Part shown: positions 25,891-55,002 of the stretch, one piece after another
Position numbering within the stretch: the stretch's first letter is position 1
Layout: each line of letters starts with the position of its first letter
NCBI GenBank assembly: GCA_024640315.1
Contig: JAHEFF010000011.1
Coordinates: 1 to 64,000, forward strand
Origin: Woeseiaceae bacterium
GTDB lineage: Bacteria; Pseudomonadota; Gammaproteobacteria; Steroidobacterales; Woeseiaceae
DNA length: 64,000 bases
Reading direction: 5' to 3'
The notes under the pieces: model-generated
Told to the model about the DNA's origin: nothing
Database searches by the model: none
The model's input: only the letters and a program-made list of their open reading frames with translations
Made by a program: the position numbers and the translations under genes

Positions 25891-26718
25891 TTATTGTTCA
25901 GGTTTGAACGTGATACGCAAGTCCCGTTCGAATATTCTGGGGTTATCAGGCTGCGGCAATGGCGAAGCTTTGAAGACGGCAGCCTCGATTGCGCGCCGGA
26001 CGGCTTCGTCGCCGTTGCACCTGCCGATACTGACATTAGTGACCGTTCCGCCCTGCACCTGGCGGACATCGACCACACATTCGAGATCGATCGGGGCTGA
26101 CGCCGGAAGGATGAAATTTCGATAGATTTGCTGCTGCAGGGCATAGACCCAGCGCGACATGTCATCGGCCTCAAGCGCCTGCAGACGTTTATCTTCCGCT
26201 TCTATTTCCTGTTGCTGCCGCCGCCTCATTTCGGTTTCCTCCGCCTCCCGCCTGAGCCTTTCGTTCTCCAGCCGTTGCCGTTCAAGGTCCTCCAGCCGTT
26301 TGCGTTCAGCTTCGGCGCGCAGCCGTTCGGTTTCCTCTTCCTTGCGCCGCTTCCGATCGGCCTCCTCCTGCTCCCGGCGCTTGCGATCTTCGTCCTGCTG
26401 CAGCCTGATCCTCTCCTGCTCGGCCCTGAGATCCGCCTGCCGCTTCTCCTCTTCCTGCTGCAGACGCTCCGCCTCACTATTGTCCGGCTCGGGCTCGGGC
26501 TCCGGCTCTGGTTCCGGTTCCGGTTCCGGTTCCGGTTCTTTCACCACGGGCGGCGGCGGCAGGTCTGCCTCGGTGACCAGGGTGGCCTCAATTGCCAGGG
26601 GCACCGTGGGCTGCACCGGTCTGGCGAAATCAAACGCGACAAACAGCCCGCCGAACACCAGCACATGAGTCAGTAACGACATAGTCGTGGGAATGATGTT
26701 GTACCGGTCGCGAATCAC
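25891..26718 (-). CDS. tolA: cell envelope integrity protein TolA (short form)
   Basis: A 275-residue inner-membrane protein, shorter than E. coli TolA (421 aa). It has one N-terminal membrane helix (about 11-27), a Pro-Glu repeat (about 62-80, the codons forming a DNA repeat at 26484-26538), a charged helical region rich in Glu, Arg and Gln (about 82-190) and a C-terminal domain with one Cys pair region (LECVVDVRQVQGGTVTNVSIGRCNG) resembling TolA domain III. TolA is energised by TolQR and contacts TolB/Pal. The shortening is confined to the periplasm-spanning helix. Context between tolR and tolB makes the assignment secure. Confidence 0.92.
   Translation of the reverse strand: MIRDRYNIIPTTMSLLTHVLVFGGLFVAFDFARPVQPTVPLAIEATLVTEADLPPPPVVKEPEPEPEPEPEPEPEPEPDNSEAERLQQEEEKRQADLRAEQERIRLQQDEDRKRREQEEADRKRRKEEETERLRAEAERKRLEDLERQRLENERLRREAEETEMRRRQQQEIEAEDKRLQALEADDMSRWVYALQQQIYRNFILPASAPIDLECVVDVRQVQGGTVTNVSIGRCNGDEAVRRAIEAAVFKASPLPQPDNPRIFERDLRITFKPEQ
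26484..26538. repeat. hexamer microsatellite encoding (Pro-Glu)n in tolA
   Basis: About nine tandem copies of a six-base unit (GGCTCG, GGCTCC and GGTTCC variants on the plus strand) encode the Pro-Glu linker of TolA. Being in multiples of six, unit gain or loss would keep the frame and only change linker length. Confidence 0.85.
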
Positions 26719-39919: not shown

Positions 39920-41113
39920 ATGAAAGGTTACACGGCGACCCTCCCTGGCGGCGAAGCGATCTATTACGTGGACAGGAAGCGATATCTCTGGACGCTGTCG
40001 GTCCTTTATCCTTTGCAGCCGTTCATTGGCATCTGGCTCCACGCCGAAACAGGCAATCAAGCCTGGTTGTTGCTGCCCATATTTCTCGGCTATGTCGTCA
40101 ACCCGCTACTCGACTGGGTTCTCGGCGAGGATGAAAATAATCCGCCCGAAGAAGTGCTCCTGAAGCTCGATCGCGACCCCTTCTACAGGATCCTGACCTA
40201 CCTGGTCGTGCCGTTGCATTTCGTCTCCCTGATCGGCGCCGCCTGGTGGGCTGGAACGCAATCGCTGAGCTGGTGGGCGTTTTTGGGCCTGGCCGCTGTC
40301 GCCGGCATCACCAGCGGTCTCGGCATCAATACCGGGCACGAGCTGGGGCACAAGAAGTCGAAAATTGAGCGCAGACTCGCAAAGATCGTTCTGGCGGTCC
40401 CCGTATACGGGCATTTCTGGATTGAGCACAACCGCGGCCATCACCGGGATGTGTCAACGCCCGAAGATCCGGCAAGCTCGCGGATGGGTGAAAGCATCTA
40501 CCGCTTCGCCACGCGCGAGATTCCGGGCGCATTCAAGCGCGCATGGGCGATTGAAAAGGAGCGCCTCGAACGGCGCGACAAGTCAGCGTGGGATATGAAC
40601 AACCAGATTCTGCAATCGATGTCCCTGTCACTCGTGTTACAAGTCGGGCTACTGCTGGCCTTTGGCTGGAAGATGATCCCTTTCCTGCTGGTGCACAACG
40701 TGCTCGCCTGGTGGCAGCTGACCAGCGCCAACTATGTTGAGCACTATGGGCTATTGCGGCTCAAGGACGATAAAGGGCGTTACGAAAGATGCCAGCCACA
40801 CCATTCCTGGAACAGCAATCACGTCTTCAGCAACCTGGTTCTATTCCACCTCGAGCGGCATTCAGATCATCACGCCCATCCGCTACGGCGTTATCAGTCC
40901 TTGCGCCACTTTGACAACCTGCCGACGCTGCCAAGCGGTTACTTTGGCGCTTATCTGCTTGCATGGATTCCGCCTCTTTGGTTCCGCGTCATGGACAAGG
41001 CGTTGCTTGCGTTACCGCATGTCAATCATGATCTGACCAGGGTGAACATCGAGCCTGCAAAACGGGCAGCGATCGTACAAAAGTATGGCCGCCGGCCGGG
41101 TGAATCCTCGTGA
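39920..41113 (+). CDS. alkB: alkane 1-monooxygenase AlkB
   Basis: A 397-residue membrane diiron hydroxylase oxidising the terminal methyl of medium-chain n-alkanes. Eight histidines in three boxes are intact: HELGH (140-144), EHNRGHH (169-175) and HSDHH (314-318). The AlkB-specific NYVEHYGLLR (271-280) separates it from fatty-acid desaturases. Six membrane helices are apparent. A rubredoxin gene overlaps its stop codon (GTGA), giving the electron donor in the same transcript. No rubredoxin reductase or AlkS-type regulator is adjacent. Confidence 0.95.
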   Translation: MKGYTATLPGGEAIYYVDRKRYLWTLSVLYPLQPFIGIWLHAETGNQAWLLLPIFLGYVVNPLLDWVLGEDENNPPEEVLLKLDRDPFYRILTYLVVPLHFVSLIGAAWWAGTQSLSWWAFLGLAAVAGITSGLGINTGHELGHKKSKIERRLAKIVLAVPVYGHFWIEHNRGHHRDVSTPEDPASSRMGESIYRFATREIPGAFKRAWAIEKERLERRDKSAWDMNNQILQSMSLSLVLQVGLLLAFGWKMIPFLLVHNVLAWWQLTSANYVEHYGLLRLKDDKGRYERCQPHHSWNSNHVFSNLVLFHLERHSDHHAHPLRRYQSLRHFDNLPTLPSGYFGAYLLAWIPPLWFRVMDKALLALPHVNHDLTRVNIEPAKRAAIVQKYGRRPGESS

Positions 41114-51325: not shown

Positions 51326-52633
51326 ATGAAAAGACTCGGATACATCATCCCTGCAGTGGCCCTCGCCATTTCCGGCAACGCACTGGCGCAAGATGCGAAA
51401 ACCAATCTCGAAGATGCGTTGGCGGCAGTCGAATCAAAAGTGATCGAATGGCGTCACGACCTGCACGAACACCCCGAGCTTTCGAACCGGGAGTTCAGAA
51501 CCTCCGCACTGGTAGCCGAACATCTTCGCAACCTGAATTTTGACGAGGTGAAGACCGGGGTTGCCCACACCGGCGTGGTTGGCACCTTGATTGGTGGTAA
51601 GCCGGGGCCGGTTGTGGCGCTCAGAGCGGACATGGACGGGCTGCCTGTCCTCGAACAAACCGGTTCTCCCTTCGCCTCGAAAGCACGTGGCGAATACAAC
51701 GGTCAGGACGTGCCGGTGATGCATGCCTGTGGCCACGACACGCATGTCGCGATGCTCATGGGCGCCGCACAGGTGTTGGCCGATAACCGCGATCAGCTGC
51801 CGGGTACCGTACGCTTCATCTTTCAGCCTGCGGAAGAAGGACCGCCCGCCGGCGAGGACGGTGGCGCAAAAATGATGGTCGCAGAAGGCGTGCTGGATGG
51901 GCCGAACCCGCCCGAGGCGATCCTCGGCTTGCACGCATGGCCCGGAGACTCCGGAACGCTGCTGTACAAACCGAATGGATTCATGGCGGCAGCAGACGGA
52001 TTGCAGATCAATATCAAAGGAAAGCAGACTCACGGCTCATCGCCCTGGCTGGGCGTCGATCCGATCTACGTTGCGGCCCAGGTTGCCACTGCGATCCAGG
52101 GTATTCCTTCCCGCCATCTTGATGTGACGAACAGCCCTGCCGTCATTACTATCGGCAGCATTCATGGTGGTGTCCGGGGCAATATCATTCCGGACGAAGT
52201 GGAGATGCAGGGGACGATTCGGACTTTTGACGCCGGTGTCCGTGAGACGCTGCATGCGAAACTCCGTAGCATCGTTAATGCCATCGCCGACGCGAACGGG
52301 GCTACCGCAACCATCTCGATCGAGGGTTACGCGCCGGTGACCGGCAATGATCCCGAGCTGCTCGGCAAGATGTTGCCGACACTGAATTGGGCGGCGGGTC
52401 AAGGCAACGTGAACGAAGGCACACTGATCACCGGCGCCGAGGACTTTTCGTTCTACCAGGAGCACATTCCCGGCCTGTTCCTGCTGCTTGGGATCAATGA
52501 TCCTGCATTGCCGCGCGCCGAACGTGCCTCCAATCACTCGCCGTTTTTTATCGCTGAGGACAGCGCCATGATGACGGGTGTCCGGGCCCTGGTTGGCTTT
52601 GCCATGGATTACGCGGCGGTCAGCGCGAAATAG
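51326..52633 (+). CDS. exported M20 family amidohydrolase
   Basis: A 435-residue protein with a signal peptide (MKRLGYIIPAVALAISGNALAQ). The fold is the M20/AbgB-HipO type: WRHDLHEHPELSNREF (44-59), LRADMDGLP, HACGHDTHVAMLMGAA (metal ligands Cys/His), FQPAEEGPPAGEDGG (Glu pair), and a late ITGAEDFSFYQEHIPG. Such enzymes deacylate N-acyl amino acids or related amides; periplasmic location is inferred from the signal. AAGGAGC at about 51313-51319 is the ribosome site. It is a single gene followed by the long regulatory gap before fic. Confidence 0.92.
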   Translation: MKRLGYIIPAVALAISGNALAQDAKTNLEDALAAVESKVIEWRHDLHEHPELSNREFRTSALVAEHLRNLNFDEVKTGVAHTGVVGTLIGGKPGPVVALRADMDGLPVLEQTGSPFASKARGEYNGQDVPVMHACGHDTHVAMLMGAAQVLADNRDQLPGTVRFIFQPAEEGPPAGEDGGAKMMVAEGVLDGPNPPEAILGLHAWPGDSGTLLYKPNGFMAAADGLQINIKGKQTHGSSPWLGVDPIYVAAQVATAIQGIPSRHLDVTNSPAVITIGSIHGGVRGNIIPDEVEMQGTIRTFDAGVRETLHAKLRSIVNAIADANGATATISIEGYAPVTGNDPELLGKMLPTLNWAAGQGNVNEGTLITGAEDFSFYQEHIPGLFLLLGINDPALPRAERASNHSPFFIAEDSAMMTGVRALVGFAMDYAAVSAK

Positions 52634-52803
52634 CCGCCCGGGATGGAAATGCCGGCGGCCCGGACATAATGCGGCGCCGGCGCCCCGTCTGGCCACGCCG
52701 GTTTGGGGTGTCGCTTCTGTAAGTGAATGATCAGGTGTCGATTTAACGCAATCCAGGCGCCCATTTCCCGGTCCCGGACGTGGATCACACTTCTGTCAGC
52801 CAC
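52634..52803. other. intergenic stretch before the fic repeat array
   Basis: No convincing gene is present. A weak minus-strand frame of 64 codons (52609-52803) has no ribosome site or family features. One isolated TGTCGAT lies at 52736-52742, 61 bp before the array and two bases off its 10-bp register. The rest is GC-rich non-coding sequence. Confidence 0.5.
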
Positions 52804-53090
52804 ATCGACATATACTCCCGATCTGTCGATAAACTACTAAAAAATCGACATATCGCTCGGACCTGTCGATTCAATCGACACATCCTGGTGACATGTCGAT
52901 AAAATGGTGTTTTTTCGACATGTCTCGCCCACCTGTCGATCTGATCGACCTGCGAGATGAACATGTCGATAGAATGTTAATTTTTCGACATATTGGGGAT
53001 ATCTGTCGATATGATCGACAGATGAGATAAAAATGTCGATGAAATCGACTTTTATCGACACATTGGTCCAACCTGTCGATGGGTTGGACA
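52804..53090. repeat. phased array of 18 TGTCGAT/ATCGACA sites, four 70-bp units, upstream of fic
   Basis: Forward TGTCGAT begins at 52824, 52864, 52894, 52934, 52964, 53004, 53034 and 53074, all exact. The inverted form ATCGACA begins at 52804, 52844, 52874, 53014 and 53054 (exact), at 52914, 52944, 52984 and 53044 (one mismatch) and at 53084 (two mismatches). Every site is a multiple of 10 bp from the others. Units start at 52804, 52874, 52944 and 53014. Within each unit sites lie at offsets 0, 20, 40 and 60 with alternating orientation, so each contains a TGTCGAT-N13-ATCGACA inverted repeat and shares a compact TGTCGAT-N3-ATCGACA palindrome with its neighbour. The extra site at 53044 breaks the pattern once. 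Spacers are divergent, so the sites, not the whole unit, are conserved. The array ends 20 bp before the fic ATG. Confidence 0.95.
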
Positions 53091-53110: not shown

Positions 53111-54259
53111 ATGTCTGATTTTGATGCAAACAAACCCTATAACGACCTGCCCTTGCTGCCACCACCAGCGGACTTGATCGAAACCACGGAAATTCTCAAA
53201 AAATGCATCAGCGCCAGGGTCTCCCTCGCCGAACTCAAGCAGGCGGCGGAGCTGATCCCCAACGCTGCCGTGCTGGTCAACGCCCTGCCCCTGCTCGAGG
53301 CACGCGCCAGTTCGGAGATCGAGAACATCGTCACGACCACGGACAAACTGTTCGAATTTGTCGACATGGCGGAGGACAAAGCAGACGCCGCCACGAAGGA
53401 AGCGCTGCGTTACCGCACGGCCCTGTTCGAGGGCACCAAGATGGTTCGACGAGGAATGCTTACCACCGATATGGCGATCCAGATATGCAGTACTATCAAA
53501 GACGTAGAGCTTGATATTCGAGATGATTCTGGAACCAGATTGACCAATCGGGCGACCGGCGAAGTGATCTACACGCCGCCGGTTGGCCAGGAACTGCTGC
53601 AGCAGAAACTCCAGAACTGGGCCGACTTCATGCAGCAAACCCTGGACACTGACCCCCTGGTGCGCATGGCCATACAGCATTACCAGTTTGAGGCCATTCA
53701 CCCTTTTACGGACGGTAACGGCCGCACGGGTCGCATTATGAATATCCTTTTCCTGGTCCAGCAGGGCCTTCTGGATACACCCATCCTCTATCTAAGCCGC
53801 CACATCATCCAGCATAAAGGTGAGTACTACCGGCTCCTGAATGAGGTGACACAGAAGCAGTCCTGGGGGCCGTGGATCATGTACATGCTGAACGGTGTCG
53901 AGGAAACCTGCTCCTGGACCACCGACAAGATCAAGGCAATTCGCGAGCTCATGCAGCACACGAGTCAGTTCGTACATAAACAGCTGCCGAAGACCTACTC
54001 ATGGGAACTGGTCGAGGCATTGTTCAAGCAGCCCTACTGTCGTATCAACAACCTCGTGTCGACCGGCATTGCGAAGAGACAGACCGCATCCGTGTACCTC
54101 AAACAGCTTTGCGATATCGGCGTGCTGAAGGAAGTCAAATCCGGACGCGAGACGCTTTTCGTCCATCCAAAGTACATTGAGTTGCTCACGGGCGAGGAAA
54201 ATGTCTGGGTCTATTACGCCGGCGTCGAAACCGAAGCCGCCGCAGCCAACGCGAGCTAG
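53111..54259 (+). CDS. fic: Fic family AMP-transferase (class II, autoinhibited) with C-terminal winged helix
   Basis: A 382-residue protein of the SoFic type. The Fic_N segment (LPLLPPPADLIETTEILKK) leads to the inhibitory motif (S/T)xxxE(G/N), here SSEIEN with E71 as the residue expected to clamp ATP. The catalytic loop HPFTDGNGRTGR (197-208) is intact, with H197 as base. A C-terminal region (about 298-360, LVSTGIAKRQTASVYLKQLCDIGVLKEV then ETLFVHPKY) looks like a winged helix. Fic enzymes AMPylate Ser/Thr/Tyr of target proteins, often themselves. GGAG (53098-53101) is the ribosome site, squeezed between the repeat array and the ATG. It converges on the next gene. Confidence 0.93.
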   Translation: MSDFDANKPYNDLPLLPPPADLIETTEILKKCISARVSLAELKQAAELIPNAAVLVNALPLLEARASSEIENIVTTTDKLFEFVDMAEDKADAATKEALRYRTALFEGTKMVRRGMLTTDMAIQICSTIKDVELDIRDDSGTRLTNRATGEVIYTPPVGQELLQQKLQNWADFMQQTLDTDPLVRMAIQHYQFEAIHPFTDGNGRTGRIMNILFLVQQGLLDTPILYLSRHIIQHKGEYYRLLNEVTQKQSWGPWIMYMLNGVEETCSWTTDKIKAIRELMQHTSQFVHKQLPKTYSWELVEALFKQPYCRINNLVSTGIAKRQTASVYLKQLCDIGVLKEVKSGRETLFVHPKYIELLTGEENVWVYYAGVETEAAAANAS

Positions 54260-55002
54260 TCGGGACTAACCACGCGTGTCCGGGATGTGTCTGGCGAGCA
54301 GTCCTTCATTCTGCGGTGAAGCAAGCCAAAGGCACTCTGCATCAACGAGTCCTCGATGATTCCGTCGACATCGCAGTTTTTCGCGAGGCGGCACAAGCGT
54401 TCAAATGTACGCATGAAATTGCGGGTGTGCCTGCAACGAAGCTCGGTGCCGTAGAAGAATTCAGCCAGGTCACCCTCCCCGAGCATGCCAATACTGAGAA
54501 ACATCCGGGCAAAGATCTCGCAGTCCCCGTCAGCAACATGCTTGAAATTCTCATCCATTTCTTCGCGGCTCATGGTGCCGCTTCCGGGCGGTCCGCTTGA
54601 AGACGAATAGAGCATTCCGGCAATACCACCAAGTTGCTGATAGACATTCTCCTTGATCTTGAAGAAGGTCTCCTGGCGCGCATTCATTTCGGTTGCGGCA
54701 ATGGCCTGCGTCTGTTTTTCTGATTGCTCAGATGTCTTGCGTAGTGCTGCGGAATTGTTCGCCAGCTCTCGTTGCTGAATAAACAATCCTATTACGAGCC
54801 AGAGAAATGCCAGGGGCGCAAATGCTCCCTCGAGGAAACTACCGATCACTTCGAGCGAGAACTCCTGATCCGGAGTCGATCGCGTCACTTCGATTACGTA
54901 CCACAGGCCGCCGGAAATCCAGACTACGGTGACCGCGACGCCGAACCAGATGCGCCAGTCGCGACTGCGAATAAACTTTACTACTGCATTTTCAGAGGCC
55001 AT
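54256..55002 (-). CDS. unknown membrane protein with coiled coil
   Basis: A 248-residue protein with two membrane helices (about 18-40 and 58-76), a polar Gln/Glu-rich helix likely to form a coiled coil (QQRELANNSAALRKTSEQSEKQTQAI, 76-101) and a cytosolic helical domain with several Cys. The pattern of two helices plus coiled coil recalls small phage-defence and regulatory membrane proteins, but no family is recognised with confidence. Its start overlaps the ligase gene by 22 bases with AAGG as ribosome site, so it is probably the last gene of that operon. Its stop overlaps the fic stop by 4 bases. Confidence 0.65.
   Translation of the reverse strand: MASENAVVKFIRSRDWRIWFGVAVTVVWISGGLWYVIEVTRSTPDQEFSLEVIGSFLEGAFAPLAFLWLVIGLFIQQRELANNSAALRKTSEQSEKQTQAIAATEMNARQETFFKIKENVYQQLGGIAGMLYSSSSGPPGSGTMSREEMDENFKHVADGDCEIFARMFLSIGMLGEGDLAEFFYGTELRCRHTRNFMRTFERLCRLAKNCDVDGIIEDSLMQSAFGLLHRRMKDCSPDTSRTRVVSPD

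Follow-up and report, generated by a model that had tools for sequence, protein, structure and literature searches.

A conserved 70-bp half-site lattice upstream of SoFic-type fic genes and its predicted role as an autoregulatory operator

The fic locus

The window in this study, by which we mean the whole stretch of DNA that was analysed, comprises 64,000 nucleotides of a Woeseiaceae bacterium (contig JAHEFF010000011.1, positions 1 to 64,000). We consider here a repeat array at 52804-53090, to which no strand is assigned and which we predict to be the operator of a SoFic-type Fic protein, and the gene fic itself (53111-54259, + strand), which begins after a gap of 20 bp. From its sequence, the product of 382 amino acids belongs to the class II Fic AMPylases of SoFic type, its activity being predicted. 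It matches PF13784, PF02661 and PF21248, that is, the Fic_N domain, the Fic domain (PF02661, E 7e-15) and the SoFic-like C-terminal domain (PF21248, E 1e-35). The structures of Shewanella SoFic match it at E ~1e-147 (2e-147 for 3EQX) and that of E. coli SoFic, 9VJC, at 1e-128. Its catalytic motif, H197PFTDGNGRTGR, contains the core HPFx[D/E]GN[G/K]R, and the motif of the N-terminal inhibitory helix, [S/T]xxxE[G/N], is present as S67-S-E-I-E71-N72, with S67, E71 and N72 invariant across 24 homologues. For the E. coli homologue, both AMPylation activity and anti-phage protection have been reported (PMC12249575). No second Fic gene was found in the genome, the assembly of which is 85% complete.

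The C-terminal part of the protein is of particular interest for what follows. Besides the PF21248 match, an AlphaFold2 model (mean predicted local distance difference test score 86) contains the helices and the wing of a SoFic-like winged helix-turn-helix (wHTH), with helices at 312-317 and 323-335 and wing strands at 340-344 and 347-351. From the model and from the covariation reported below, the predicted wHTH covers residues 298-351 (54002-54163, + strand), with a putative recognition helix at residues ~321-335 (54071-54115, + strand).

Structure of the array

The array contains 18 copies of the half-site TGTCGAT/ATCGACA. Thirteen are exact, four carry one mismatch (starting at 52914, 52944, 52984 and 53044) and one carries two (53084). 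The start of every half-site is offset from 52804 by a multiple of 10 bp. All 8 forward half-sites are exact, compared with 5 of the 10 inverted ones. A preliminary description of this DNA had reported the same counts, the 10-bp register and the drift confined to inverted copies, and our recount agrees. It had also put the number of exact copies expected by chance in 64 kb at about 8, which is too low: the calculation gives 11.5 (standard deviation 3.1), against 36 present in the window. Within the array, 13 exact copies are found where 0.05 are expected (Poisson P(>=13) ~2e-27), and chance clustering is thus ruled out. Another exact copy, at 52736, does not keep the register and does not belong to the array.

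The half-sites form four 70-bp units. The positions 0, 20, 40 and 60 given earlier for each unit were confirmed, with the strand order -,+,-,+, which is equivalent to a lattice of +0,-10,+30,-50; only the half-site at 53044, which keeps the 10-bp register, falls off the 70-bp lattice. As a consequence of this arrangement, a 17-bp dyad (TGTCGAT-N3-ATCGACA) alternates with a 27-bp dyad (TGTCGAT-N13-ATCGACA), their centres being 35 bp apart. The 27-bp dyads lie at 52824-52850, 52894-52920, 52964-52990 and 53034-53060, the last of them enclosing the additional off-lattice half-site ATCGACT (53044-53050). The 17-bp dyads lie at 52864-52880 (exact), 52934-52950, 53004-53020 (exact) and 53074-53090, where the second half is degenerate (TTGGACA). 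The suggestion that all sites share one face of the helix is correct locally and fails for the array as a whole, since on DNA of 10.5 bp per turn each strict 10.0-bp step rotates by about -17 degrees, or about -120 degrees per 70 bp. Because of this drift, a long assembly on the array must either wind round the DNA or overtwist it.

When the four units are compared with one another, the half-sites are 90% identical and the spacers 42%, a contrast that is partly circular because the site positions were set by the lattice itself. The low spacer identity rules out a recent duplication of the units.

Conservation of the half-site and the lattice

The same half-site occurs upstream of fic homologues at 55-94% protein identity. 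We examined 37 non-redundant Woeseiaceae loci and 62 distant loci at 55-62% protein identity, the latter from other proteobacteria and from records labelled Acidobacteria, Verrucomicrobia and others. Allowing one mismatch, the Woeseiaceae loci have 13.2 sites per 450 bp compared with 2.6 in Markov resamples, and the distant loci 6.1 compared with 1.6. The distances between pairs of half-sites (30, 40, 70, 100 and 110 bp for ++; 10, 20, 50, 80 and 90 bp for +-; 20, 50, 60 and 90 bp for -+) are exactly those of the 70-bp lattice +0,-10,+30,-50, and when all three- and four-site lattices with periods of 50-90 bp were enumerated, this lattice ranked best in both sets. In 31 loci fetched later, from E. 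coli, plasmid, viral-contig and other genomes, 140 of 388 pairs fall exactly at the predicted distances, where about 17 would be expected if the distances were uniform; this 70-bp lattice is present at the SoFic-type loci of two E. coli genomes. The convergent spacing is rigid (10 bp in 152 cases and 11 bp in none; 20 bp in 172 and 21 bp in one), while the divergent spacing is slightly loose (20 bp in 270 and 21 bp in 23). The lattice is therefore conserved in fic homologues and is not a one-off of the window.

A fit blind to sequence, which asks only that the four lattice positions resemble one another, was significant in 84 of 95 distant loci, with z>2.5 relative to shuffled sequences. Since the lattice is also detected at loci whose half-sites are unlike TGTCGAT (for example TGTTCA, TGGCRCA or TGCACTA), the geometry is more conserved than the half-site sequence. 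Most relatives have one module over the promoter, consisting of a 27-bp dyad and a 17-bp dyad and often one further half-site. Upstream of fic in Hydrogenovibrio (L080) there is a long, near-identical tandem array in which the half-site is TGTTTA and the 27-bp dyad is retained, apparently an independent expansion. Upstream of more distant Fic paralogues (~41% identity) the motif is absent. Three of these (L117, L118 and L119) have, without TGTCGA, another imperfect palindrome in a frame resembling -35 and -10 boxes, for example TTGACATGAAGAGAACATCATGTATAG; other Fic subfamilies may have operators of their own.

These comparisons bear on the idea that the array arose neutrally, by tandem duplication of a 70-bp unit that contained an ordinary single operator. 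Duplication does add units, as is indicated by the near-identical units at one locus (L020) and by leader lengths in Woeseiaceae that change in steps of about 70 bp. Against this, the window spacers have fallen to 42% identity while the sites stay at 90%, sites also exceed spacers between orthologues (81% and 54% identical), and the lattice of a single unit is itself conserved in distant species. A purely neutral repeat was accordingly rejected, and we regard this explanation as highly improbable. The preliminary description had staked its case on comparable arrays being found upstream of homologous fic genes and on the repeat being other than a recent neutral duplication, and the comparisons refute it on neither count.

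Identification of the probable reader

An association scan was made between every column of the Fic alignment and the half-site letters. Bases 4-5 of the half-site (CG) associate most strongly with Fic residue 324, and base 6 with residues 325, 328, 344 and 322. In the AlphaFold2 model these residues map to the start of the recognition helix (322, 324, 325 and 328) and to the wing (344). To control for shared ancestry, half-site distance was compared with recognition-helix distance while catalytic-domain distance was held constant. The partial r is 0.64 for Fic residues 321-331, a value reached by none of 2000 entropy-matched column sets drawn from residues 1-280, and the best sliding windows of 11 residues in Fic all start at 315-324, which is the recognition helix. 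Since the pairwise distances depend on one another, the result stands as strong covariation and not as a formal phylogenetic test; in the 12 usable held-out loci the covariation is too weak to count as a replication by itself. As the preliminary description had proposed, control of fic is the most likely function of the array, and its most likely reader is the C-terminal winged helix of the Fic protein itself.

Another regulator, either a stand-alone transcription factor or an antitoxin linked to fic, could in principle bind the array and control fic. A separate small antitoxin of 47 amino acids, AS1, has been proposed for E. coli SoFic (PMC12249575), and direct binding of the array by SoFic is so far a prediction. 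Such a regulator would need to occur together with fic in several phyla, yet no neighbour gene is conserved in the 62 homologous loci among open reading frames of at least 70 amino acids, a limit above the length of AS1; the best candidates, type I restriction genes, occur in about 7 of the 62. A regulator encoded beside fic in a frame of at least 70 amino acids was rejected for this reason. The covariation of the half-site letters with the Fic recognition helix also persists once the rest of Fic is corrected for, and we consider it very unlikely that a different protein is the reader. A dispersed regulon was likewise rejected, since whole-genome pattern searches rarely gave strong multi-site matches anywhere but upstream of fic. 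In 60 related genomes, a pattern of three half-sites with up to two mismatches occurred, among the matches listed, almost only at this position, the exceptions being an orphan operator and a repeated sequence in genome G065. The orphan operator (L120, contig G079:C19, ~40760-40820) has at least four half-sites on the lattice, and a tblastn search found no fic gene or remnant nearby.

In about 7 of the 62 distant loci (L066, L067, L070, L076, L081, L095 and L113) fic lies inside an apparent type I restriction-modification locus, with hsdR-related open reading frames upstream and hsdM/hsdS downstream, as judged by eye from the sequence. This placement fits a role in defence.

Promoter and leader

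At the upstream edge of the array, a 17-bp dyad with a degenerate first half and an exact second half (52804-52810) is followed flush by the -10-like TATACT (52811-52816); the whole spans 52794-52816 on the + strand and is probably the promoter core. TATACT stands flush after a 17-bp dyad in 31 of the 37 Woeseiaceae loci, and in 26 of these the dyad is the most upstream one. A promoter scan gave no canonical sigma-70 promoter on the + strand of the window, and the call therefore rests on the conservation of TATACT. In distant loci, sequences like -35 and -10 boxes lie flush against the 17-bp dyad in the form TTGACA-[17-bp dyad]-TAagCT, so that the dyad would fill the spacer between them. In Woeseiaceae the distances from TATACT to the start codon cluster near 165, 235, 300, 355 and 440, which are steps of about 70 bp, and from this it appears that the array grew downstream of the promoter. 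About 23-37 bp upstream of TATACT there is an element conserved in Woeseiaceae, ccGGA-N6-TCACa (52774-52789, + strand). Its placement is like that of a class II activator site of the CRP family, for which it is an unproven candidate.

Because TATACT follows the dyad at the upstream side in so many Woeseiaceae loci, most of the array is probably transcribed, and a leader of 150-450 nt in Woeseiaceae, rich in UGUCGAU/AUCGACA hairpins, might then control translation or termination. Two terminator-like matches, one on each strand, were indeed found over one dyad region. A structure acting as RNA would not account for the strict 10-bp register, for the presence of direct as well as inverted copies, or for the conservation of letters in place of compensatory pairs. 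Moreover, across species, sites upstream and downstream of the promoter follow one lattice, the covariation is with a DNA-binding helix, and no Rfam family reaches its gathering score, for which reason a known Rfam element was rejected. Control by the leader RNA is, in our estimate, highly improbable.

Comparison with known systems

The preliminary description knew of no precedent, which does not stand: self-repression by a Fic protein with a wHTH is already known from CccR of Yersinia pseudotuberculosis, an autorepressor with a C-terminal wHTH (PMC9755527). CccR binds inverted repeats near the -35 and -10 boxes of its own promoter and represses itself as a dimer, and this autoregulation is independent of toxicity (PMC9755527). 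Its operator is a single spaced palindrome, AGATAATCAT-N26-ATGATAATCT, with 10-bp boxes 26 bp apart (PMC9755527). Like the window Fic, CccR is a class II Fic AMPylase with a C-terminal wHTH and inverted repeats upstream of its own gene. It differs in having one pair of 10-bp boxes with a different half-site, and neither an array nor a 70-bp lattice; it is also a type VI secretion system effector. SoFic and EcSofic (Shewanella 3EQX and 3ZCN; E. coli 9VJC) are direct homologues of the window protein, and neither an operator nor DNA binding is described for them in the papers found. The 70-bp lattice and the recognition covariation appear to be new, being undescribed in the literature found, which consisted of open-licence papers without preprints.

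More remote parallels exist. In Phd-Doc, the module of the Fic-fold toxin Doc is autoregulated by cooperative binding to a multi-site operator (conditional cooperativity); there the DNA is bound by the separate antitoxin Phd and not by the Fic-fold protein, which differs from our proposal. MraZ and BldC are autoregulators that bind as cooperative multimers to several short repeats about one helical turn apart. Their operators are direct repeats in few copies, the proteins are unrelated, and there is no lattice of alternating dyads.

A model of autoregulation

We consider it highly probable that the array serves as an operator through which the SoFic-type Fic encoded immediately downstream regulates its own gene, with binding as a prediction, and fic probably controls its own dose. 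The computed basis is the conservation, the geometry, the selection on sites, the recognition-helix covariation and the lack of another candidate regulator among the neighbours; physical binding, repression and cooperativity are what we infer from it. The C-terminal winged helix of Fic dimers would read the 7-bp half-sites, and the fixed 70-bp lattice would let several dimers line up next to one another, probably with cooperativity, on the promoter and on the DNA downstream of it. Once bound, they would shut off fic transcription and so hold the dose of a toxic AMPylase low. For most relatives this would involve a single module over the promoter, whose 17-bp dyad apparently occupies the -35/-10 spacer; in Woeseiaceae, including the window, the lattice would have gained further 70-bp steps between the promoter and the start codon. 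The fixed convergent spacing suggests direct contact between neighbouring wHTH domains. One Fic dimer may sit on each convergent dyad, or dimers may bridge divergent pairs.

Several points weigh against an operator of this kind. According to PMC10628234, SoFic had not been demonstrated to bind DNA, and the CccR type of operator, two 10-bp inverted boxes with a 26-bp spacer, is not what the window contains, where the half-sites follow a 70-bp lattice with spacings of 10 or 20 bp. A single rigid dimer would hardly fit both of these dyad spacings. Some homologues, for example those at L059, L129, L151 and L128, have no detectable lattice. The promoter register is ambiguous, an offset of +17 bp scoring equally well as or better than 0, owing to the likeness of the half-site itself to a -35 box. 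Finally, the likely -10 element precedes most of the window array, whose role there may be that of a roadblock, or leader-based, instead of promoter occlusion.

It is also conceivable, and in our judgement unlikely, that the lattice serves not only as a promoter operator but also as a regulated depot. Holding many Fic dimers on DNA by their C-terminal domain, the array would keep them inactive and would sense damage to host DNA or the nucleoid in phage infection, at which point a burst of active Fic would be released and fic derepressed; the Woeseiaceae arrays would in that case be enlarged depots. In E. coli SoFic, toxicity needs contact between the C-terminal domain and the AMPylase domain (PMC12249575). 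A filament on the array, and the sensing of AMPylation or oligomer state, are speculation.

Other features of the window

Upstream, the neighbour of the array is an M20 peptidase gene in the same orientation as fic, ending at 52633. Downstream of fic lies a convergent gene (54256-55002) for a protein of 248 amino acids without a Pfam match. Elsewhere in the window, at 26483-26538, the hexamer TCCGGT is repeated in tandem about nine times.

Significance

SoFic-type Fic enzymes are single-gene anti-phage toxins. Judged from the sequence comparisons, the array is real and conserved, and it is very probably SoFic's own operator. An operator lattice that tracks the recognition helix leads to a specific prediction of the binder, the place, the residues and the geometry, and since E. 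coli carries the lattice at its own SoFic loci, the prediction can be tested there. If it is true, the arrays of two to six units would provide a natural series in which to examine how an enzyme that is also its own repressor assembles cooperatively.
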